A stretch of DNA of 64,000 nt, from contig NC_049982.1 in the NCBI RefSeq assembly GCF_000003815.2, forward strand, positions 32,553,057 through 32,617,056. The letters run 5' to 3'. The notes below the pieces were generated by a model. That model was given only the letters and a program-made list of their open reading frames with translations, searched no databases and was not told the origin of the DNA. The DNA is from Branchiostoma floridae. Lineage: Eukaryota; Chordata; Leptocardii; Amphioxiformes; Branchiostomatidae. Each line of letters starts with the position of its first letter. Position 1 is the stretch's first letter. Below are positions 318 to 54,700 of this stretch, piece by piece. The position numbers were made by a program, and so were the translations under genes.

Positions 318-3300
318 CCGGCCCTGCAGGAGAAGGAACCTGGACCTTCGGCAATGCAGGTCATGCCATTGGGACAGGTGTCGCTGTCGCACTGGTACAG
401 CGACTTCAAGTTGTTGCTTGTTGCTGAAAAAAAAAATAAAATAAGAAGAAGTCTATAACGACATCCAGGTAAACAATATTCTACAATACTCTACAATATC
501 CTACAGACTCTACAACTGGATTAAAAACAGAGACGTTACTTCCGGACGTTTCGAGTGACACCCATCACTCTTCTTCAGCGTCACTAGAATGGACTGGCAG
601 AACAATTCAATATAATGTTCGCGGTCACTTAGCGCGTATCAGTCACCAACGTGCCGTTACCACCCCCACCCCCAAGCCTGTGTGACTTTCAACTCACTAC
701 CCATGCGTTTGCATATCAAAACTGTCAACGTTGAAAGTATTATTGAAGAGCTAACTAGATGCCAGATGGAACTGGAGATGTACAGATCATTTCACACGGT
801 TCCGTTGCATCTAAACATCAACACTGGTTTGACTAAAGGCTAATTGCTTTGTAGAACTATATGACAAGGTAAAAGGTAAGGATGTAAAGGTGCCCTTTCA
901 CTGCACTTGCGTCAAGCTTGCGTCACTGCGGGGTTCGCTACCTGCGTCACTGTTTTGTTGTTTTCTCCGATTTTCTATAATTTAGATATTGCGTTTAATA
1001 CGTAAAAGTATGACTTAGAAGACAAAAAGTAAGAAAATTCGTTCTTTTTCTTATCTTTCGAGTCCCGCAGTGACGCAAGCTTGACGCAAGTGTAGCGCAA
1101 GAGGGCACCTTAAGATAGATAGTGGCTCTCACCATGGCAGATGAAGTGAGTGACCATGTCCTCACAGATCCAACCGAAGGGACAGTAACCCTGACCCTGT
1201 GTGCACCAGTCAATGTCTGTAATTAGAAAAAGAGTTCATATCATGAACTTGAAATTGAGTAAGATGGTCACCAATTTCTAAGCCTGAATTTAAAGTTTTT
1301 TTTATCGCTGAAGTTTAGGTTAGAGGGTAACATGTGAATCATCTTTTTCACAAGCAGTACGATCTATCCTGCCATCCTAGTTAGTTTAGCATGCTGATTA
1401 TAATCACCTGCTTCACAGAAATCTCCGCTGTACCCAATAGCACATTCACAGCTGAAGGAGTCGACACCGTCCGTACATGATCCACCATTTTGACACGGAG
1501 AAGAGGCACACTCGTCAATGTCTGTCAAAACACATCAAGATAATGCCAACATTGAAATGAAATACTTAACAAATGTGCAATATGGAAAACAAGAGTTACA
1601 GTTTTTAGTTTAACAATTGCTAGCATGTGTTTAAAAATTAAAAAAAAATAGCTAATACTGAAAGTACTAAATGATTTCACCCACTTATCTCACAAAACTT
1701 TCCGTCAAAGCCGTCTAGGCATGCGCAGAAGTTGTAAGACCCATCGAAACACGAGCTGCAGTTCCCTCCGTTGTGGCAGATGTCCTGTCCGCATGGCTTG
1801 GGTTCTGTGGTATGGCATCATTTGAAACGGTTATGATTTATAACGCAATGTGCCGTCCACGCAGGGGATATTTAGATACCTTGGCGCACACATGTGCGTC
1901 TATATATATAGAATATCTCATAGTCAACACCATCTTTACGATTCGTCGATTGTTTTTCTGAAACCAAAACTGACATTTCCAAGATAAGCACTTTGTTGGA
2001 GAACAATAGCAACTCATTAACTGAGAGCCATGTGTTACTTTTATTCACATGCATTAACGTTTTATTAAGAGCTGATCTTAGTTGAAATTCTGAGGAGAAA
2101 TGACAACTTTACCAGCTTGACAGACATAGTTGTGCTGCTCCCCACAGGGTGTTGTTATGGCCTGATAGTTGCTGCTTGAGTCCAAAAGGACGCACAGGTC
2201 ACATGGCGAGGCAGGCTGACTTGATGCCCACTCCAACTCATCTAAGATATTGTTGGAGAGTTATTTAAATTTTCCTGGATTCACATGTCATCATAAATCA
2301 AAAACATCTGGATCAGAGATCGTTTTACTCTGTCTACGTCAGGTGATAAACACTTGTGTGGCGAATTGACAGATGAGTATTTTCGTGCTTCCCAGAGGAG
2401 AAATCTGGGTTTTACACCTTTTCCAGAAATTTTCTTTTCGCACGTCAAAGACTAAACCAAAATGACTGGGATGGCCTACCGCAAGTATTATTTTCTTTAT
2501 ATGATACGTCCTTCGATATTGTTTATGACATGTCTGACAAAAGCCGAGATATGCCTCGATCACATTTCCAAACCGGGGCGACACCGGGCAGCTTTTGTCC
2601 ACTAAAAGTACAGACAACAAAAATGCAGAACATGATGAGGTATTAAAGTCATGAGCATAATTTGTGTATATTTAGTGATAGATACTTTTTGGTTTCCGCA
2701 ATCATCCCGGCCGGGCCGGGCCGGATGTTAAACAAAATCACACGAAAAAAAAGTTTTTAAACATCGAATTACTGAATTGGTCTTTCGTCTATTAAAAAAA
2801 CACTACATGAGATTTGTCTAACAACAACAACAAAAAAAATTAGCAAGTGGGGTTCGAAACTACGATCTACGGCTGGAGAAGCAAACTAAGATAGGTACCG
2901 TGATGTAGACCGCTCGGCCACGCTGGCTCGATTACGCAATAGGACGTATAGAAGGGCTAGTTGCTTAAATTGACCGATCCATGCATCCGTCTCATAGCCG
3001 GTGCTACGCACCGGGCAAAAACAGGGTGGGAGGGTGGGCGTTCTGGAACAGCAACTTTCCTTACCTGGTCCCCCCCCCCCCCCCCCCCCCCCTCCTGATT
3101 CCAGCCTGCTACACGGTTTGCAAATGTGATTGAAGCAATAGATAGCTTCATCTTAAGTGGGGTTTCTGTTTAATAAAAAATCTTTTAATTTCAATACTTA
3201 ACCTATATAATCTCACATCGGTAGCAGGAAGTTAACATATCACATTCGTGACAAAAATGAATCGGATACCTGAAACGCTGGATCCATCGCTGTAGGTGAG

Positions 3301-6300
3301 AGTCACTGGTGGGACCTTGATCCCGATCCAGAGGGAGACGTCACTTCCGGTAGTGCTGGCGTTGCCGATGAGATGCTGCTGCTCGGCCTTCCTGACATCC
3401 GCCAGGTAACCTCCCCCCGCTCCACAGGACTGGGACGCGTCACCATAGGAGACGGCGTGGAGGGAGAACTGGTAGCAGGCACCCATATCCAGCACTGACA
3501 AACAACCACATTTCAATGTGAAATGGAGAACTGGTAGCAGGCACCCATATCCAGCACTGACAAACAACCACATTTCAATGTGAAATTCAGCAAAACACGG
3601 CTGTACACTAAACCGAGTGAGTGATCAGTGAGTGAGTGGTTTGTGAGTGCCAGTGAGTGAGTTAGTGAGTGAGTGAGAGTGAGTGAGTGAGTGAGTGAGT
3701 GAGTGAGTGAGTGAGTGTGAGTGAGTGAGTGAGTGGTTCGTGAGTGTGAGTGAGTGAGTGAGTGTGAGTGAGTGAGTGAGTGAGTGAGTGAGTGAGTGAG
3801 TGAGTGAGTGAGTGAGAGCAAGCGAAGAGGTACGAAACTTTGGTGGTATGTACCAAGCAGTGCATTCCCCATTTGCAAACTGAGCTATAACCGTTCCTAT
3901 TATCGATCTTATGACGTCTGATTATCTTGAACGTCTTGACTGGAAAGTAACATGGTTAAGTCAGACGTCGTGGCTATTTCAGTATATATTGTTGGTTCAA
4001 TGTATTTCCAGATACATACCTGTTTCGCAGTTTTCACCGGCAACGCCTTTGGGGCATGCGCAGGAGTAGCCGTTCAGTTTGTCCACGCACGTTCCGCCGT
4101 TAGAACAAGGGTTGCTTGCACACTCATCTATATCTGAAAAACGAAAAATCTTAAATCATCAGCCTACAATATTCAAATGTGTAATCTGAGAATAAAAATT
4201 CTATTGAATAATGAGAACAAGCTTATGATTAATTATACGATACTGTAATGAACTCATCTTCCACATCACATATTGTGATATTTGATCTAACACGTTAAAG
4301 TGTGATTTTTGGATATGATAGATAACGTACTTAATTGACAGTTATCTCCGGCCATGCCAGCTACACACTGGCACGTGTAGCTGTTCACTCCATCGATGCA
4401 CCTCCCTCCGTTCATACAAGGGCTACTCACACATTCGTCTGTTTCTGAAACAGATAAGAAATAATATTCTTTTGAGCAATTAGAAAACGCAAAACAAGTC
4501 GTTGCCGGCGAGCAATTCTGTACGTGTGTAAGCGAGTGAGTAATTGAGTGAGCAAGTGAGTGAGTGATCGAGTGAGTGAGTGAGTGAGTGTGTGAGTGAG
4601 TGAGTGAGTGAGTGATTAAATGAGTGAGTGAGAGTGAGTCGGTGTGAGTGCGTGAGTGAGTGAGTGAGTGAGTGAGTGAGTGAGTGNNNNNNNNNNNNNN
4701 NNNNNNNNNNNNNNNNNNNNNNNNNNNNNNNNNNNNNNNNNNNNNNNNNNNNNNNNNNNNNNNNNNNNNNNNNNNNNNNNNNNNNNGTGAATGAGTGAGT
4801 GAGTGAGTGAGTGTGTGCCTGATTGAGGGTTTCATTGATTGTGTGTTAGTGAGTGTGTGAGAGTGTGAGAATGATTTGTGCGAGTGAGATAGCATGAGAT
4901 TGCTTGAGCGAGTGCGCGTGAGTGAGTGAGTGAGTGAGTGAGTGGGTGGGTGAGTGAGTGAGTGAGTGAGTGAGTGAGTGAGTGAGTGAGTGAGTGAGTG
5001 AGTGAGTGGGTGGGTGGGTGAGTGAGAGAGAATGAGTGTGTGTGTGTGAGTGAGTAAATGAGTGAGTGAGTGGGTGAGTGAGTGAGTGAGTGAGTGAGTG
5101 AGTGGGTGGATGAGTGAGTGAGTGAATGAGTGAGTGAGTGAGTGAGCGAGCGAGTGAGTGAGTGAGTGAGTGAGTGAGTGAGTGAGTGAGTGAGTGAGTG
5201 AGTGAGTGAGTGAGTGGGTAGAGGTGAGTGAGTGATTGACTGGGTGAGCGGGTTAGTGAATGAGTGAGTGAGTGGGTGGTATAGGAGTAGAAAATCCACG
5301 TAATAGCAGTTAAAGGAAAATAATGTGAACATTCTACGCGTACTGCTCACCAAAATGTACAAAGCAAGCAAATGTACTAGGATCAGTAATGCAATGGTGA
5401 AGTCACTCACCGTCACAGTTGTTTCCAGTATAACCGGTGACACAGGTACAGTTGTACCCGAGCCCCTGGTCCTGGCACGTCCCTGCATTCATACATGGGC
5501 TGCTGGTACATGCAGCTGTGAAACATCATAAAGCAATACTGAGATATGATAATTTGAGTTCATTAATACTAGAGACTGAGATGTATGAAATGATACATGA
5601 TATGATATGATATATGATATTATATATGATGCAGGCATATTAGGGTTTGAACTAGACGCTCTAAACGAGCCATACTAACTTGCCGAGCGTGTACACACGG
5701 TGTACACAATCCTGTCTCCGGGAAAGGCAAGAGATGTGTAGGTCAGACTGTTCCGACTCTCGACTATCCCACGTTGGCAGCTGCTGGTAGTGCATCTATA
5801 GAAGCCGAAACTCCTCAAAGAATTCGCTCCAGCTGAGAAAGCCAAGTTCGCCACGTTACGTACACCGCCAGACGGGTTACAGTTGAGCACGTTGTTGATG
5901 TAAGGGTCGGAGTTATACTCAGTCACGCACCGGCTGCGGACACAGCAACACATTTATTTCATATTCACAGATGATTAAACACGTCCGATCTAGTAATAAA
6001 AAGAGGTACATATTACAAGACAAATGATCATTAAATTCAGTTAAGTTTATTGAATGGCGTTAATCACACATGCCACTTTCTTTTCCGTTTCTGGCCTTCC
6101 TGTGTTCATCATATGATAATTTTTGCACATTCTAAGACATTAAAGTACTTCGTGAGTATTGAAGAGTAAAATTGCTACATCTTCTTTGATTATACTACGA
6201 GGGGCGTTCAATAAGTAATGCCTCTGAAACACTTCCAGTTGTCTGATCTAGATGAAATTGTGTATGTGTAATGATTCATATCTCTATGGGTTATATTGCA

Positions 6301-17516: not shown

Positions 17517-17611
17517 TATCTTTACGTAAGGTACGTCGATGTAGGTTAGACATCCAGGTAATAAGATACACCAAAAGGTAGTTACTCAAGCAACTGGATA
17601 TGGTTTTGAAA

Positions 17612-17660
17612 CGGTCAGACGTTTCGGAAAGTATCCAATATCCTTCGTCAGTGACACTGA
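17612..17660 (-). ncRNA. Hammerhead-like motif, degenerate copy
   Basis: Minus strand reads CUGACGA, a weakly paired stem II region, GAAAC and GUC in the correct order and spacing. Stem II is disrupted compared with the plus-strand copy at 17911, so activity is unlikely. Confidence 0.45.
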
Positions 17661-17910
17661 AGCTGAGATCTGGAAGAAACAGGTCAACTAAAACAACAGG
17701 AGCTAATTGACTCTTTTGCATTAACTGTGTCTTAGCCTTGCTATCCTTTGAAATCCAAATTGTCTTCAGCCTGACTTTGGCTTACCTTTGTTTTCTTTGG
17801 AACCCAAATTGTCTTCAGTCTAAATTGTCTTACAACGTTTCCTATTGGACAACTCAAATTTTCTTCATTCATAGTTAGAGTATAAAAGACCTGTTTATTC
17901 CAGATCTATT

Positions 17911-17960
17911 CAGTGTCACTGACGAAGGATAGTGGATTCTATCCGAAACGTCTGACCGTT
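17911..17960 (+). ncRNA. Hammerhead ribozyme-like motif (type I, short stem III)
   Basis: Plus strand: GUCA, CUGACGA (17919-17925), stem II GGAUAG paired with CUAUCC around a UGGAUU loop, GAAAC (17945-17949), GUC (17950-17952), then UGAC. The GUCA and UGAC flanks pair to give four base pairs of stem I. All invariant core positions of the hammerhead are present. GAAAC runs directly into GUC, so stem III would be minimal or need a dimer. Confidence 0.65.
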
Positions 17961-18015
17961 TCAAAACCATATCCAGTTGCTTGAGTAACTCCTTTTTGGT
18001 GTATCTTTACGTAAG

Positions 18016-20124: not shown

Positions 20125-23100
20125 CTAATCATCATCCAGCATCCCTTGGTACTTGGCGATCCTCCTCATGCCCCTGGCTCTCTTCCTCCTGGCTACATTA
20201 TTGGCCATGCTCCTCAGGGTAGACATCTTCATCAGCCTACCCTTGTCCATGACTATCCGCGTCTCAAACTCCATCTTGGTGACGGGAACCGTGCCGCTGC
20301 GGGGATGACTGCGAGCCTTTGCGACTCGCTTGCCGATGCTGTCCTTGAGCAGGGGGAGTATCTGTAGGAACATGAGATAGCCGGCGATGGGGGTCAGTCG
20401 GCTCACGTCCACTGCGCTGGTCTTCAGGAGCGCAGAACTCTCGGCAAACAGACGCATTCTCAACTTGTCCGATGCGAGCGGACAGATGGACTCCATGGCG
20501 TTGGCAAACTCTCCTTCCGTCATAGATCCGGGTTCCTTTCCGGGATGTAAGAACAACTTGACTTCAGCGTCCTTCATTCTGGGCTCCCTTCCCCTCAGGA
20601 TGGCGTTCATGACCCACTCTATCACCAAGGTTTTCGAGATCTTGTTCTCGCTGAAGGACTGGTAGCTCATGGAGACGGTTTCGATCTCGTCCTCCTGCAA
20701 GAAGGGATAGATGCACTCCGCGAAGGCTTCAAAGTCGCGGACTTCCTTCCACTCGACAGCTTCGATCAGGTCGGCGACCGTCACGATGTATCGCATGGTT
20801 GAGGCGTCCAGGTGTCCGGCCAGCAGGAGAGCGAACATGTGGACCGTGCGGCTGATGTTCACCTGTTGTACCACACCTGTCAGGAAATCGTACGCGGCCA
20901 GGTATGTCACCTCGTCATCCAGGTATCTCTCGGAGAAGAAGGCATACAGGGCATCCACAAAGGACAGGGTGGGCTCGTCGTCCATTCCACAGTCATCTTG
21001 GAACACCAGGGTGGCGTAGAACTGTTCGATGATTGACAGGACACGCTCCTGGCTGAGAGGACGGGCGACGGCCCTCGCAATATTAGACCGTTTCCTGTAA
21101 TCTACCCAGATCTGCTGCGTAGTGTTCTTGATGGTTGATTCGTCCTCACTGCTGTCTCCGTTCAGTAAGTTTGCCGACGTGGCAACACTTGTGCGTCTCC
21201 TGCTGTCTCCTGGCGTCTCTTGGTCTGAGTGCAGAGCGCAGACGCCTTGGTTAGAACTGGTTTGAGACATACGCCTTGTGGAACTAACCGAAGCAGCTGA
21301 TTTCGATTTCCCATCAACGTTAACCTCCGACTGCTGCGGCCCCTGTACCGTGTCGGAAACTTCAATGTTCACCCTCAGTTTGGGTCGTACCACTTTGATG
21401 TGGGTGCAGTTTTTAGGTAGTATAAAGACCTTGTCCTTTGTGGTGACCTTGTGAGGACATATGACTGTCTTTTCACCACAGCTGGGGCAGAAGGCACCCT
21501 CTTTGAACTCCTCAAAGTTCCTGCCAAAGTTTGTGGAGAAGTACAGCATGGCGGAGTACTTGCTGAGGATGTGTTCGTGCGGGGAGAAGGGGTCATCGCT
21601 GGCTCCTCCGTCCCCTGCTTTCTCCTCCTCATCCAGGCCACTCTGGAGGGACATGGCTGAATCTGGAGAAATAGAAAAAAATGGTGTCACGTTTGCAATG
21701 AAGATAAAGAGAGCATTATTTCTTTTTAGTCGTAGCATTAATGAATGGTTTTAGCACTTATTGATTCAAGTAAATAATGAGCAGAGTAGAGATCTTAGAA
21801 ATTTCTATCAAGTTTGTACAGTCAAACTCACAGAATTTACATGAAGACAGGACACTACTCCAAATAGACTCCGTTGTAGCAAACTGGACCATTGTTTGAG
21901 AGAATTGCCCATTCACAAGGTTTCACACACAATGACTTCCAGGTTCATGTCCGTACCGGGAACTGATGCTCTGGCCTTGAACCGGACCTGTACCTGAATT
22001 TTACCCACCCCTAATCCTAGTACAGAATATTTTCACGGCCGTAACAGGAAACACAATATTTTTGCCAGGCCTTTAGAACTTTTTAAAGTTATCAAAATAA
22101 AGTTATTAAAGCTATTAAGATAGCTTTAAGCTTTAATAGCTTAATAAAACCTCTGGACCTGAACTGGATCTGTACCTGAATTTTACCCACACCTAAACCC
22201 TACCTACAGAATTTTTCACGGTCGTAACAGGAAACACAATATTTTTGCCAGGCCTTTAGAACTTTTTAAAGTTATCAAAATAAAGTTATTAAAGCTATTA
22301 AAATAGCTTTAAGCTTTAATAGCTTAATAAAACCTCTGGACCTGAACTGGACCTGTACCTGAATTTTACCCACACCTAAACCCTACCTACAGAATTTTTT
22401 CACGGTCGTAAAAGGGAACACAATATTTTTGCCAGGCCTTTAGAACTTTTTAAAGTTATCAAAATAAAGTTATTAAAGCTATTAAAATAGCTTTTATTAA
22501 TAGCTTTAAGCTTTAATATGCTTAATAAAACCTCTGGACCTGAACTGGACCTGTACCTGAATTTTACCCACCCCTAATCCTTAACTACAGTACAGAATTT
22601 TTTCACAGCCCTAACAGGAAATACAACATTTTTGCCAGGCCTTTGTAAAACTTTATAATAGCTTACCTCTACCTCTGGACCTGAGACCCTCCCGTCCGGC
22701 TGATCCCGGCTTACTGCCGGGGCGGCCGGACTTCCTCCCGCTGCCTGGAGTCTTCATCCGCTGCTGCTGTTCCTCCTCCTGCTGCTGTCGTGCCTCCTCC
22801 ATGTCCTGTAGATCCTTGGTCAGCGCGTCCTTGTGCTGCCGGATCAGCGCCAGCTCGTTACCTAACTCCGCTACGGAAGCCTGGAACCTCTCCTGGGTAC
22901 ACTGAAGCTGGGGAACAAAACAAGGAGAAGAAACGTGATGCACTTGTCAGCTCGTTGTCTAACTCTGCTACTGAAGCCTGGAACCTCTCTTGGGTACACT
23001 GGAGCTGAGGAACAAAACAAGGAGAAGAAACGTGATGCACTTGTCAGCTCGTTGTCTAACTCTGCTACTGAAGCCTGGAACCTCTCCTGGGTACACTGAA

Positions 23101-26100
23101 GCTGAGGAACAAAACAAGGAGAAGAAACGTGATGCACTTGTCAGCTCGTTGTCTAACTCTGCTACTGAAGCCTGGAACCTCTCCTGGGTACACTGAAGCT
23201 GAGGAACAAAACATGGAGAAGAAACGTGATGCACTTTGTCACCAAATTAAATTCCCAAACTTTCTATACATTGCCAAAAACAGATGTTTCCCTACCAAAT
23301 ATCTCAGTGAAAAGGGTCTGCCTATTACTTAACAAAAAAATGAGTCCAAATAGGTCTGATATGCAATGTCTATTACAAATAAAAACTGCAGAAAGTCCTA
23401 AGTATTTATTTATTCTTTATTCATTTATTCCGCTCATTTCAAGATCAAAGGAATTTCTGGCTGCTATATTGGATCAATAAATGTGTGTACTTGCATTTAG
23501 GGCTGAAAAACACTTTCTATATATAAAGTATTATGAGTTGATAATGATAAAATAGTGCTATGCTATAATCTATGAACCTACAGAATCCAATGTCAAATTG
23601 TCCTGTCATCTGTTGAGATAAATTCTACGGAAAACTTTCCCATCCAGACAGCTAACATGGACAAATCAATATGGTGGCCAGAAATTCCTTTGATCTTGAA
23701 ACGATCGGAATCATTTGTGGGCATAACAAGTGAAAATAGAGAAAAATATGAAAATGGTGGACACAATCATGGTTAAAATAAAGCCAACCTCTCATTGGTT
23801 ACACTGCTAATTGTATTAAGTATGATGGACAGTCAGGGTCTGTCTATGAAAAACATCCCACAATTGTGCCCACCTCCACATCCAGTTTGTCTATCTGCAT
23901 CTCGTTGTCAGAGTAGTTTGGGTCGTTGACGTTGTCCGTCTGGACACATGACGAGAGCTGCAGCAAGTGGGCTTCCATGTAGGCATCAAACTCTGGGGAA
24001 ATATGAGTAGGTCAGCCTCTATCTTAGATTTACTAAGATAACTGTAACGAAAGGTTATAATGGTACTATGAATGACAAGTGACACACATTGTCTCTTACA
24101 GGAAATAAGGAAAAGGAAAGTGATCTCAATCCAATTTTAGCTCACTGAAGAGCTAGTCTTTCACTTAGGTCATGACAGAGAGGACATATGTTATGAGTAT
24201 TTACAGGTTCATTGTATCAGGAAATTCCCCTAGCTCTTTTCAAAAAGCACAATGAACAGCGGACTATGGCTTAACATCCCAAGTAAGGACTACAACCCTT
24301 TCCGGTAGAATGTATGTCGGGTGAGCGACACAGTTGGAATCAAACTCGCGGCTTCTAGTTCCAGAGGCAGGGCTGCTAAGGGACTGTACGATATTTATCA
24401 GGGGGGGAGGGCTGGTGCGTTAGGGGGGGAGGGTCATGTTAATTTTTTTTGAGGTGGGGGGAGGGCCATGTTCATTTTTTTTAAGATAGGGGGAGGGCCA
24501 TGTTAATTTTTTTGAAAGAATAGTTTATACTATTTTTGTTTTGATATTTTGACATGGCCCTAAAACTGATAAAATAAGCCTTCTGAATAGCCTAAAATGC
24601 AAGAGCTTCCGGGGGGCTTCGCCCCCCTAAGTCCCCCAAAAAGTGGCACTGCCCTGGACCAGCGTTCCCGCCAGACATACGTCATTCCGTCTTGGGACTG
24701 ATTTTTTCTGGAAAGACGCACTCGGCTCGGGTGAGTGTGTCCATAAAAAATCTGAAAGAAAGGCTGACCTGTACCACCCGTGTGGAATCTTTTTAAAAAC
24801 TATCTTTATAAGAAGGAATCCTACCTTTACAATTTATACTGGGGCATGGGCGGAGCGCGGCACGTTTTAGATATATTGGTAGCCGCCCGTGTCGTCTGGC
24901 AAGTTTCTTCCCCAACAATTTACTATTAAAGTTTCCCCAACTACGCGCGGTGCGCGGTAATTATGCGAAGAATCCAAAGCTATGTTTATGAAGGTTAGAC
25001 ATCCAGGTAAGCAATATTCAAATACAATTCAATCTCTACAACTGGATAAAAAACGGATATTTACTTCCGGACGTTTCGAGTGACATCCATCACTCTTCAT
25101 CAGCAAAAGCAGAATGAACTAGACAGAACAATTCAATACCAGTACAGCTAACTAGAAAAACTGGTTTAACCACTAAATCGTTAGGATCATATGCAAAAGG
25201 TTACACAAATGTAAATCATGTTAGCATAGTTCCTATGGTCTGACAATACCATAGGAAAAAACTATTGTCCTTTGTTGTGCAAGGCGGGGTCCCATGTACT
25301 GGAAAGTTCTACGCGTAGTCCTCCCTTCCGGTTCAAGGTGGGGTTGTAGATCCGCTCGTAGATGGCCTCCTTGACACCCCGTTCGTACCACCGTGGTTCG
25401 CGGTCAAGAATGTCTGTAGTATCCAGTCTGAAGGAATGTCCTTGGTGTAGCTGAGTGTGGTGGTAGATAGCAGAAGAGTATCCACTCGCTGTAGCCCTGC
25501 AGTGTTAGTGGTTAAACCAGTTTTTCTAGTTAGCTGTACTGGTATTGAATTGTTCTGTCTAGTTCATTCTGCTTTTGCTGATGAAGAGTGATGGATGTCA
25601 CTCGAAACGTCCGGAAGTAAATATCCGTTTTTTATCCAGTTGTAGAGATTGAATTGTATTTGAATAATCCAAAGCTATAAACTTTTTTTTTTTATTTACA
25701 ACATTTCTGTTGTTTCAAAAGGGCAAAATTTGCGGCTGAAAAGGGGCCGCAATATTGTTGTCAAGCGTCGATCGAGTCGACGTCGGCTGTGCACTCCGTG
25801 GCACATGGCGCGGCACGCCCCCCTCCCCAGACGGACGGTCGATCGATCGCAGCGCCCAGCACGTTGGGACGTCTTTTCTGGCTACTCCTTCAAGGCTACA
25901 CCGGCACTGATCACTGCCAAAGACGCAGCAGATCGACCTCCTTCGTATAATGTACATTTGTATAACGTTCTTGGTCTATGTAAAAAAAGAAATCCAGCCA
26001 AATATTTCACGCCGAAAACGGGGTTACCTGAGGTCGCAGGAAAGGAACGCACGCTCCTGGAAAATGACGGCGCGGCCTGCCCGTGTAAAACCCGACCAAT

Positions 26101-29100
26101 TTAATTAATTTGAGTAAAATCATCGGGCAAAATAGAAAAAAAGGTGTGATGGCGTTGTTATTCTATCCTCTGGAAAAACTACTAGTATTTGATGCGGGAG
26201 GACGCACCATCGATCGCACGAGGTAGACATTTTTTACTCAATGCCGGAAGAAAATTGGCAGGAATTTTCCATGGGCTGACAAACTCACTGGCTAGAACCC
26301 TGTTTCGAAGCATCAATAACCCAAAATTTTCATATAGACATGACTGGACAATAATACCCGGGCCAGATCACGGACGGCTGATTCCCCGTGCTTATAGTTA
26401 AATTTTTTTATAACGTATTTTTGAGGAAAGGGCGGACGTCGATTACTGAATAACGGGAGTAGAAAAAGGCAAACGGCATCCAATCTCAAGGGCATAATTT
26501 TCCTCTCAAATTGCAGGAAATTCTGTTTTAGAGGGTTTCAAAATCCAAATTTTCCCGGGGGAGCATGCCCCCGGACCCCTGCCCCGACGCTGTGAAAAAA
26601 CCCTGGCAAGAACACTGGCTATACCAGGTGGACGCCGGGCGCCCTTGTGCCCTGACGTCTATATTACTTTAAGGCTGTTTTTATCGGTTGTTTTTCTACC
26701 CTTTTAATGATTCCTGTCGGGGGGAGGGCCATGTTGATTTTTTTGGGGTGGAGGGGGAGGGTCACGTTAAATTTTTTTGAGATGGGGGGGAGGGCCATGA
26801 AAAAATTTTTTGATCGGACTTCCAACGCACCAGCCCTCCCCCCCGATAAATATCGTACGGTCCCTAACCACTGGACTTAACGCACGCTACAGTAGTTGTG
26901 AATGTTCCTATTTGTGGAGGGTCAAGTAACTAATGTTTAATGTACTAGTTCAACCAAATTGACCCAATTACCTATATGTGTTGCTACCGGTACCTGTCTA
27001 TTTTGGCCATTTAAAGAATCCCTTGAGTGGTCACTTTAGACTCCTTGAACTATTTAATGAAGGTTAGACATCCAGGTAAACAATATTTAAGGCAATTCAA
27101 TCTCCAAAACTGGATGAAAAACAGAGATTTACTTCCATTACTATCCAGTTGTAGAGGATGAAATGCCTGAAAATATGATGTATTAAAGACTGGTCCATGG
27201 TTTATGTTTCTTTAGAAAACCTACCTTCCAACAGGGAGTTTTGGATGGACAACATCTGGCTTTCCAGTCTCTTAACATTCTCAATGTCTGTCACAAGATT
27301 GGCCTGTGCAGAAAAAAATATGAAATACCGTTAGTACATGTACATGAACTACTAACAAGTCAGTCTACACAATTGGCCAATGTTCACCTTGCATTTGGTA
27401 TGTCATGGGTTTGATCCCTGGGCAAGTCAAATCAAAGCCTTTGATAATGCTACATACTGCTTTCTCTGCTTAGCACTCAGCATTTGGGAAAGAGTGTGGT
27501 ATAACGGTAGTTGAACAAACAGACCACTACCAATGGACTAGAGCCCTGCTGTAGTGACTGCATAAAGTTGTGTGGCCCAAGAGCTTTTGAAAGGAGATGG
27601 GTGCCACCCTATGTACTATCTGTTGCGGGAAGAACTGTACTTTTTTAGGTTACTTAACAAACCTGTTTTTATCCGAACAAATGCCAAGGACGGTATAAGA
27701 TGATGGCTTTTTTAAATTTTGATCAGGATCATACATGTTGGGCTACACTCACCTTTTTACTTGTGAGCACAGGTTTTCTTTTTAACATTCTCTTAGGCAT
27801 GGAGTCTGTAGGGTACATGGTGTGGAATGCTGGAATCAAAACAACAAAGCATCAGGGACTTGGATGGCAGTTGCTTGGATGACAAAAAAACTAACAAATG
27901 TATGAGCCATAGTCTAAGTCTTTATTTGTATTATATTGTATTATACGAACATGTACCTTCTTGCATTTTGTCAAAGTTGGTCTTGTATTGTGTCATGTAG
28001 TTCAGCTCTTCAGTCAGCCTGCGTATGTCTGCCCGTAGATTGGAGATGTTTTGTTCATACGATGCTTTTGCCCTTTCAAAGCCATTCTTGTCCTCCTCCA
28101 TATCTGCATGCAACCTATTGAAAAGAGTCAAAACAAAAGTATGGTTACTTCTCATTATCAGATTATAACCAGACCACATTGACCAATCAGAAGGCCCCAT
28201 TTCTGGTTATGATGGTGTAACCCTGAATATCCTATTTCTAAAACCAATGAATACATGACATTGTATATTTTGAGTTATCTCGCGGATAAAGGTCAGAAAA
28301 CTAGTGCTATATTTTTCTTAACAAAGTAAAAAGCTTAAAAAGATGTCCAAAACAAGTTCGAGTCTAACTGTTGCTTATACCCCTGTCGCATTTGGCGAAA
28401 ATCGATCGGACGACGATTCTGCGGCAGTCGCCTGAGCCTCGCTTATAATAATAATAACTTTATTGCACAACAATTGTACAAGGTACAAAGTATGGCACTT
28501 TGTACAATTGTTGTCCAATAAAGTTATATTCATATATGACAGAGACGGTTTTCAGGTGAAAAATACATGCAACCCTTTGTCTATCTTAAATAAGGCCGAT
28601 CTTCCATCGATACCAATATTATATTATTAGTAACTAACTTTTTAATGTCCTGGTTTCTGGCCTGAATCTCAGACTCCAGACCCTCCACTGTGTCATTCAG
28701 ACCTTCAATGTCCTGCCTCAGCTCATCGTTAACCGCTTCTAGAGCTTGAAACTGTTGCTGCTTTTCTCGCAATCTGTATTGGGAGAGGACATTGGGAGAT
28801 GTTACAGAACAGTAACAAATGACAACCAAAGAAAAGAGGACTATGATAAAACAGCAGAATACACATTCAAAAAAAGTGTGAATACACAGTAATAATTTTG
28901 TTGCATAAGGCTAAGGGACAAAGTTCTGCAAAGATCACAAAATATTCATTCCATTCTTTCATTCGAGATTTTCCTAGTCACCTGTTGCCATCAAATTTGT
29001 TTAGGCCTAAGAAAAGAAATATTGTATTTTCTGTTTCAATCCTGAAAAATGAAGGGTCGGTAGGTAGTGTTTAGCTTTTTTTCTAATTCTAATGTTCTTT

Positions 29101-51767: not shown

Positions 51768-54700
51768 TACACACACACACACACATATAAATGCACAGAC
51801 ATATACAGACATACACACACACTCAAACACGCACTCAAACACACACATGTGGTCGCGCAGGCACATAGACAAAAAGCTAAAGCCCAAAACAGTACTTCAT
51901 TGCTCCCTTTGCACAATACGTTTACTTCTGTCATGTTTACTTCTGTTCTCCCTCGTCCCCAGGGACTCAGCAACATTGATCTGGAGTGGATGAAGAAATA
52001 TGGCAAGTACTGGGGGTATGTCCGAAGTTACACATTTTTAGTAGTATTATTCCCAAATTAATTCTAACTACCCAAATCATATTAATATTAAAGTTCCGGC
52101 GAAAGAGGTGAATTTCAGGAAAATAATAATCACAGCATAAGAAAATAAGGGTAGGGACAATGTCCACAGTCACAAATTCAACCTTGATCCATTGCAGCGC
52201 ACAATATATTAACGAGTTGTCTCTCAAGTATCTCTCAAAATCAAGAACTGCTTATTCCGAGTTAGCAGCAAATCACATCAAATCTTAAGTGATTTGTAAA
52301 AGTTGTAACGTGTGATAACCATAAATGTCAGTGATTAGACAAAACAATCATACGTTATACGAGCCTCCATAGTAGGCTCTCTGGGTCTTTTTTTGGGGGG
52401 GGGGGCGTTTCTTCTTGTACTGGATCTCTTGTGAGCGTGCTGATACGTTCACTGAGTTAATAGATTAACGTAGAGAGGAATACTCCCTTGTTTTGTTGAC
52501 AGCCGATTCAGAGTAAAGTTATTGTTGGATATAGGAGAATTCTTGTTACACAACCTGTAGGCACTTACATAGCTAACGTTTCGATGTCTCTCAGACACCT
52601 TCGTCAGAACTTCTAACTGGAGTTCTGCTTCTCACCGCTATATGTAGCCGATGTAGGTGACGCTTTTGCGGTTCATCATGTAAGTACCTTTTGGTTGTGT
52701 AAAAAGAATTCTCCTATATCCTATATTCTACCAACCTGATGAAACTATTCTCGAAAGTTATTGTTTATGTGTTTCCTGTACTGGCTGTAGGGTGTATGAA
52801 GGACAACTACCTGTACTCATCGTCGCAGACACCAAGCTCATCAAACAGATCAACGTCAAGGAGTTCCCTAACTTTGCTAACCGCAGAGTACGTGCACATT
52901 TCATCTCTGAGACAACCAGAAAGGTTTACAGGGAACAGAAAGAGATTTTAGAGAAGTTATTGAGTTTTAGACACAAATCGACAGCAGAGCTGTCTCATAG
53001 ACTCACAGATTCCTGCAGTACAAAAATTACATCATACGTGTATGAGTACGCTTTCTCATAACAATACGGTACAGTCATGTTGATTTGATTATATGGATGA
53101 CAACATCTTGGAACCCAAAAACTGATACGAGATCAGACGAACGTGCTAAAAGGTTGCCTTCGTTATGAAATCTAAGTGGTCAGGAAAGATGAACAAATGA
53201 CTAGAAACACAGAGCACAGTATATTTTTTTTCACATCTTTTACACATCTCTTATTTTCATATACAATAGTATCAGTTTTCCAATATCTGTTTCAATTAAC
53301 GACGTGTATGTGCTCACTTTACAGCTGCTTTGTACGATGTACAGTATGGTCGAAAATTTCTTGGTGTTTTATTTTTTAATGATGAAAGTTGATACGCAAG
53401 CGGATGTAACCATGGTCTAAGGTACTGTCGGCTTATGTCAATGGTTTTCTTATTCATCCTGAAAGAATGACATTGGCTGCATTGTTGTTTCTCACCGTTG
53501 TTGCAGTTGATGCCGGGGAATGGTCCGGTGATGAAGTACAGTCTGACGGTTCTCCAGGACGCCGAATGGAAGCGAGTCCGCAGCTACATGAGTCCCTTCA
53601 ACAGCGCTTACAGCCTCAAGCAGGTCAGAACTAAGTATCATCATACAAAAGAAATTATTATTTTTCAGCACGGAGTGGAGGAAGGGACCAATTAGGCGTG
53701 CAGATAGAAGAATAGACTCGATCATCGAATGTTAGAAGAGACACCTGGTCTTACTCTACTCTCAAAACAGAGGTTTGATAGAAGATTGTAACGTTTATCT
53801 CATGTCACCCATTTTCCAACGGCAGACCCAATCATCAAAGTGGTCTTTAGGATCTCCTGTCGAAAACAGAACATATATCTAGAAGACGGTTTAATCCTCC
53901 CAAGCAACGTTTGCTTAGAGAATAGGTCTTCTACAGAATGACTGCTGACCGGATTGCTTAGGCAACGTATTAAACCTTATGAAACTGTGGCGTGAACAAT
54001 GGGTCAAAGGCCAGTAGTTGGAAGTCGGTATCGTCGCCCGCCCGGTCCCATGAAGGTGGATGAGCCATACAGTTGATGGCTTCCACAATGTTAATAAAGA
54101 TGAACGTTTGTCACGCTTATCACTTCGAATAATTTATCTGACATATTTGAATGGCATTTCGGCTTCAATGATGATATATTGGAAATATCTTATATATATA
54201 CGATATTGTTTTTATGTTTTCAGCTGTGCTATCTGATAGAGAACACTTCTGATAACCTCGTTGCAGCCATGACACGGTACCACGATGCAGGGCAGTATGT
54301 TGATGTCAAAGAGTGAGTACTGGTATACTATACTGGATCTACTATGGCTTTTGTGTCACATTTGTGTCATGGTTCAAAATCATCGTTTTTATTGCCATGG
54401 TTATTTGAGATGGTTCTGTCTCATGGGTCTATGTCATGGTTTTGTGCAATGGCTTATTGATCCGATTCTAAGCATGGTTCTGTGCCATGGTTCTTTACCA
54501 TGGTTATGTCATGGTTTTGTACATGCATGCAAGTAATACAAAACATGAGACAAACAATAAACTCTAAGAAATGCAGCATGAGAAAATTTTTGTTCAATTC
54601 TATCTCATCTTTTCTTTTATTAGAAAGAATGCAAAAAAAAAATGCATTTTTGAATTTCAGGATTTTCGGTTGCTACACCATGGATGTCATCTCCAGCACG

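Follow-up and report, generated by a model that had tools for sequence, protein, structure and literature searches.

Head-to-head Penelope-like element insertions with one tailed end, one tail-less end and a stem-III-less hammerhead motif in each arm

Hammerhead variants without stem III have reportedly been described from Penelope-like elements (PLEs) by Cervera and de la Pena in 2014 and by Lunse, Weinberg and Breaker in 2017. In the available text of two reviews, PLE hammerheads are said to be missing helix III and to be capable of self-cleavage as dimers, with a role given as unknown (PMC7761336, PMC6155905). For Poseidon of Anolis carolinensis, the accessible part of the study by Frangieh et al. 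2024 (PMC11167929) describes a PLE protein that cuts and extends both target strands in vitro, internal starts of reverse transcription at two adjacent sites bounding the tail, no strand difference in this respect being seen, and a hammerhead ribozyme (HHR) that cleaves only with protein and is dispensable for in vitro insertion; the HHR cut lies at ORF+26 and the most common start at ORF+111-118. For Penelope families of Adineta vaga, head-to-head inverted repeats have been attributed to self-priming on an antisense template, in a paper whose available portion yielded no count of tails per insertion (PMC3846280). Inverted pLTRs and 3' extensions are also noted for PLEs in excerpts that bear no further on such a count (PMC8969392, PMC12910113). 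The PLE itself, the inverted pLTR, the optional tail on one inverted pLTR and the dimer-type hammerhead are thereby known and already in print.

We analysed a stretch of 64 kb (the window) that contains a 682-bp insertion at 24984-25665 (Table 1). The 13-bp direct repeats of the original prediction were confirmed as target site duplications (TSDs) bounding this insertion, and the inverted arms that it had described were found at 25015-25176 and 25505-25666, 162 nt each with 100% complementarity, the final base of the right arm (25666) being shared with the target duplication. The left arm is extended by 31 nt missing from the right arm. The copy is 5'-truncated, and no direct (tandem) pLTR was seen in it. 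The expected minus-strand frame was also recovered, as an 80-aa remnant for which a Pfam search of the remnant alone returned no match; it corresponds to the C-terminus of a longer reverse transcriptase ORF in sister copies. In one of these, L011, the ORF matched RVT_1 (E = 3.7e-7, 30.5 bits, cut-off 29.6), which bears out the proposed PLE origin, while GIY-YIG was absent from the L011 ORF at E 0.001 and gave a weak match to PF01541 on 141 aa (E = 0.01, 16.5 bits, under the curated cut-off of 22.6). The window copy, with its inverted pLTR arms, 31-nt tail and 13-bp TSD as PLE features, is an ordinary young PLE insertion, probably of an endonuclease-containing element.

Table 1 Positions of the features of the window copy and of copies of two further PLE families in the window
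Feature	Positions	Strand	Description
Target site duplication, left	24971-24983	none	AATCCAAAGCTAT
Target site duplication, right	25666-25678	none	AATCCAAAGCTAT
First cDNA, tailed, 521 nt	24984-25504	-	C-terminal ORF remnant, pLTR region, hammerhead and tail; probably a single cDNA
Tail, 31 nt	24984-25014	-	At the left outer end of the window copy only
Second cDNA, tail-less, 161 nt	25505-25665	+	Head-to-head junction with the first cDNA at about 25504/25505; probably a single cDNA
Hammerhead, stem I to stem I	25061-25112	-	Core 25070-25103; predicted cut after 25070 (minus-strand reading)
Hammerhead, stem I to stem I	25569-25620	+	Core 25578-25611; predicted cut after 25611
Putative PLE reverse transcriptase-endonuclease ORF, C-terminal remnant, 80 aa	25262-25504	-	Open stretch ending ...ILDREPRWYERGVKEAIYERIYNPTLNRKGGLRVELSSTWDPALHNKGQ
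Second PLE family	17531-18001	none	Tailed end left, tail-less end right, hammerhead in each arm; TSD 17517-17530 / 18002-18015 (14 nt)
Third PLE family	52527-52753	none	Tail-less end left (with minus-strand hammerhead), tailed end right; TSD AAAGTTATTGTT (12 nt)

We assessed how the ends of this family (family 1) are arranged elsewhere in the host genome. A search with the whole element gave at least 116 matches from 40 scored of 2274 candidates, and the regions examined comprised 36 from element matches, 20 from hammerhead places (C4, where the window lies, 1; C7, 1; C1, 8; C2, 10) and 3 with two divergent motifs close together. Many copies consist of two 3'-end fragments of unequal lengths, fused head to head so that the 3' ends face outward. 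Their outer ends are of two kinds, tailed (T, map position 521-524, with a tail of 31-34 nt) and tail-less (N, 484-494). Every adjacent divergent end pair of the main set, including the window copy, was N/T (30 of 30), as were all three pairs of the extra set of three regions, such that family 1 has 33 of 33 head-to-head pairs of this type, with no N/N and no T/T; 13 alignment pieces reaching no outer end were excluded from pairing. Under independent end choice at even odds, 29 unlike pairs out of 29 would arise with a probability near 2 in a billion (0.5^29). A TSD was present in 29 of the 33 pairs, comprising 26 of 30 in the main set, compared to 6 of 870 in a mismatched-flank control, and 3 of 3 in the extra set. 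It was absent in L053, L055 and L056, the last two of which look like duplicates of one locus, and lay just under the threshold in L060; that of L063 is weak.

Outer ends left unpaired in the main set number 32, of which 22 are tailed and 10 tail-less. Among 16 single-ended loci, a likely TSD abuts the 5' truncation in seven (five tailed, two tail-less), which indicates that one-sided insertion also occurs and that two-strand priming is not obligatory; three others of the 16 end in an assembly gap. We found no statement of an obligatory one-tail-per-insertion rule in the literature searched, a search that lay apart from the key papers of 2014, 2017 and 2021 and the structural papers of 1997-2006, and we claim no priority.

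The original prediction of a hammerhead core in each arm was borne out at the positions given in Table 1, with the core CUGANGA and GAAA and an NUH cleavage triplet present in both motifs. What had been called a hammerhead pair is one hammerhead per arm, but the pair is inverted, with one motif on each strand, so that no working (tandem) pair exists within one transcript. A transcript of the window copy would carry one sense and one antisense hammerhead, and a 162-bp hairpin could form. The pattern CTGANGA-N(10-30)-CGAAACGTC, picked after the motif had been seen, had 5 matches in the window compared to 0.00 expected from shuffles. The host-genome search proposed with the original prediction found the 34-nt motif with at most 3 mismatches at 747 places in 513 Mb, against 0 for the reversed control, and the core is intact in 82 of the 88 arms that span it. 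Core position 7, the variable core position of hammerheads, is A in 90, U in 9 and C in 1 of the 100 matches listed out of 747, and U in the window copy.

Conservation of the fold was assessed in an alignment of eight motifs (seven distinct, six from the window, at least three PLE families). Core columns were invariant, and each of the eight rows carried an additional A after A9 and before stem II. Both partners had changed in 5 of the 6 pairs of stem II and in 4 of the 9 pairs of stem I. Covariation scored 0.559, compared with 0.255 in shuffles (none of 500 reaching the observed value) and no more than 0.171 in slid controls, and the number of pairs with a double change was reached by 5 of 500 shuffles, while the number of further pair types was not unusual (115 of 500); as the aligned rows are few and related, these shuffle figures are not probabilities. 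Compensatory changes across PLE families support the predicted stems I and II, which had been proposed as paired and which comprise six pairs in stem II and eight, including G-U, in stem I in the hammerhead fold. Judged by its sequence, the hammerhead of the window copy is not a chance motif.

Folding predictions depended on context. The 52-54-nt motifs alone were more stable than shuffles (z = -3.4 and -2.2), and in an 86-nt context they were not (z about -1). In the predicted minimum stems I and II persist, but some of the core is paired (-17.7 vs. -14.1 for the hammerhead fold), and the departure from that fold grows in longer context. As originally noted, GAAAC continues directly into GUC, such that the canonical stem III is absent and is reduced to AC/GU without a loop. 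Rfam hammerhead models expect stem III. The original prediction had named a missing covariance-model hit as evidence against it, and on this formal point it failed, for an Rfam search at gathering and permissive thresholds returned no hammerhead match, probably because stem III is only AC/GU with no loop. We read this miss as counting against the canonical class and not against the published stem-III-less variant. Within the text available for the published PLE hammerheads, no difference from the window motif was established: both have type I topology, a pLTR location and a stem III of AC/GU only, and the published motifs are proposed to act as dimers, as the self-complementary junction ACGU of the window motif would permit. 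The suggestion that stem III forms between two molecules therefore stands as far as self-complementarity goes, but the ACGU duplex alone is weak (-3.1 kcal/mol). RNA of this family may cleave as a dimer, which we infer from the motif.

We compared the two arms within each copy for signs of a common source. Core position 7 was identical between arms in all 21 readable copies (A/A in 18; U/U in the window copy, L038 and L045) of the 25 examined, which are the main-set pairs other than L047, L053, L055, L056 and L060; L030 has an additional core change in one arm. Across 23 of these 25 copies, L048 and L054 having fewer than 60 shared sites, the two arms of a copy were closer to each other than the median of the distances to other copies in 20, but at most as distant as the nearest other copy in only 12, which falls short of proving a common source for each copy. 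Gene conversion after insertion could also have made the arms more alike. At L010 the arms are 99.9% identical over about 1 kb, and at about 4215-4270 the tailed end includes a stretch matching the flank on the other side of that insertion, which looks like exchange between arms.

Lengths and junctions were compared in 25 of the 30 main-set pairs (those other than L010, L053, L055, L056 and L060). The tail-less cDNA was longer in 21 of 25 (p = 0.0009), with the window copy one of the four exceptions, and may thus be primed first. In this count the tailed cDNA of L047 was scored as 1 nt in length (46 nt map overlap), while the lengths used for the tail-less cDNAs of L026 and L032 contain some other sequence; when aligned pieces are counted instead, neither pair changes sides, L032 narrowly. 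Junction overlap or gap was at most 8 nt in 17 of the 25 and larger in 8, with up to 625 nt of other sequence.

We consider it likely that the window copy is a short, recent PLE insertion made by twin target-primed reverse transcription with two start sites. The PLE protein would cut both target strands about 13 nt apart, and both cut ends would serve as primers on template RNA of one kind, with reverse transcription beginning within its pLTR region. One cDNA would start at the outer site and keep the 31-34-nt tail, the other would start at the inner site and have no tail, and both would stop early and be joined head to head to leave inverted arms. Each arm would contain a hammerhead because the predicted cut lies 86-89 nt upstream of the outer start and 49-59 nt upstream of the inner one. 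The TSDs, the arms, the one-tail pattern, the variants common to both arms and the covarying stems are read directly from the sequence; two-strand priming as their cause, and a template uncut at the hammerhead when copied, are our interpretation. Poseidon of Anolis, whose ORF combines RT and GIY-YIG (the latter weakly matched here, under the cut-off), is similar in its RT, its two internal start sites bounding the tail and an HHR upstream of the start, and its distance from cut to most common start (85-92 nt by our own subtraction, whichever of the two sites this is) compares with 86-89 nt for the tailed end here (PMC11167929). In the available text it differs in having tandem copies with no strand difference in start, whereas copies here are head-to-head pairs with one start site each, and a strict one-tail rule is not predicted by strands that start alike (PMC11167929). 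The one-tail regularity would place two features long known from PLEs, inverted pLTRs and the 'optional tail', within one step of two-strand priming, and it allows the insertion mechanism of PLEs to be tested with genome data.

Inverted arms could also arise by self-priming, in which a cDNA or an antisense template loops onto itself and has its own end copied, leaving a head-to-head inverted repeat. This was proposed for the Adineta vaga PLEs from palindromes at inverted junctions, according to the text available (PMC3846280), and would fit both the orientation and the variants common to both arms. We regard it as distinctly unlikely here, since a fold-back copy to the template end should give like outer ends and 33 of 33 family 1 pairs differ by tail, and the two window cDNAs reach very different upstream points, so that their junction is no simple palindrome. 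Assembly of the pair from two independent insertions, or by recombination between copies, is very improbable: copies are abundant enough for it (747 hammerhead places), but in 29 of 33 pairs both arms lie together within a single TSD, the rare position-7 variant is common to both arms, and the junction overlap or gap is at most 8 nt in 17 of 25.

A separate question is whether the motif acts as a ribozyme, or is a hammerhead-like sequence kept for coding or protein binding (ORF start, RNP binding) that does not cleave. The outer-end arms run unbroken across the predicted cut (map position 436) in 90 of 98 cases, with the remaining 8 ending short of it, which suggests that copied templates were uncut there or resealed. 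The cDNA 5' ends show no peak at 436; only 3 of 98 outer-end arms start at 433-444, including L054, which adjoins an internal deletion, and the old window copy near 27060. This gives no sign of cut RNA as template, in a scan that is blind to an upstream cut of full-length copies. These unbroken arms, the lack of an Rfam match and the differing predicted fold in longer context are compatible with a sequence that does not cleave, as are observations in the accessible text on Anolis, where the HHR overlaps the ORF start, HHR mutants leave in vitro insertion unaffected and no reads begin or end at the HHR cut (PMC11167929). The same text reports cleavage by that HHR when protein is present (PMC11167929), and in our alignment core columns are invariant while stems change compensatorily, such that we think a non-cleaving role rather doubtful. 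Templates apparently copied straight across an intact cut site would nevertheless limit when the ribozyme can act. An extension of twin priming, which we put forward as speculative and improbable, is an asymmetric dimeric complex with two template RNAs and obligatory outer and inner starts, in which the palindromic stem-III-less hammerhead just upstream would help to pair the templates, in the manner of a retroviral dimer-linkage site, and cleave only later. Such a complex, if it exists, would account for the one-tail rule as well as for the absence of stem III from PLE hammerheads.

Two further PLE families in the window were compared with family 1. In family 2, the window copy and two loci selected because both ends were visible in matches (L069, L070) are all N/T with a TSD. 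L068 (C369:20900-21600), selected because its rows looked tail-less at both ends and one of four family 2 structures viewed in sequence, is head-to-head N/N with no TSD and is enclosed by a larger inverted repeat that begins GTCCAGTATACC. This structure may be an exception to the one-tail rule, though it may also be PLE sequence captured in another palindromic element. Family 3 has six more N/T pairs (C1, C2, C6, C9, C15 and C16), identified by eye from match rows without a TSD check. The two-armed unit, junction included, was matched whole or nearly so at 18 other places for family 3 and 5 for family 2, matches that stand outside the one-tail counts. Head-to-head units of both families thus seem to be amplified as small non-autonomous hammerhead elements.

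Other copies and repeats were noted in the window. An old mini-copy of family 1 at 27058-27172 has a tailed arm on the left (minus strand), a short, apparently tail-less arm on the right at about 27143-27172, and no TSD clear by eye. At 459-600 (minus strand) there is a single older PLE end with a shortened tail and a hammerhead, CUGAAGA...GAAACGUC, at 545-578. A tandem array of four copies with a period of 97 and 96% matches occupies 22851-23241, and a nearby array with a period of 183 nt lies at 21969-22644.
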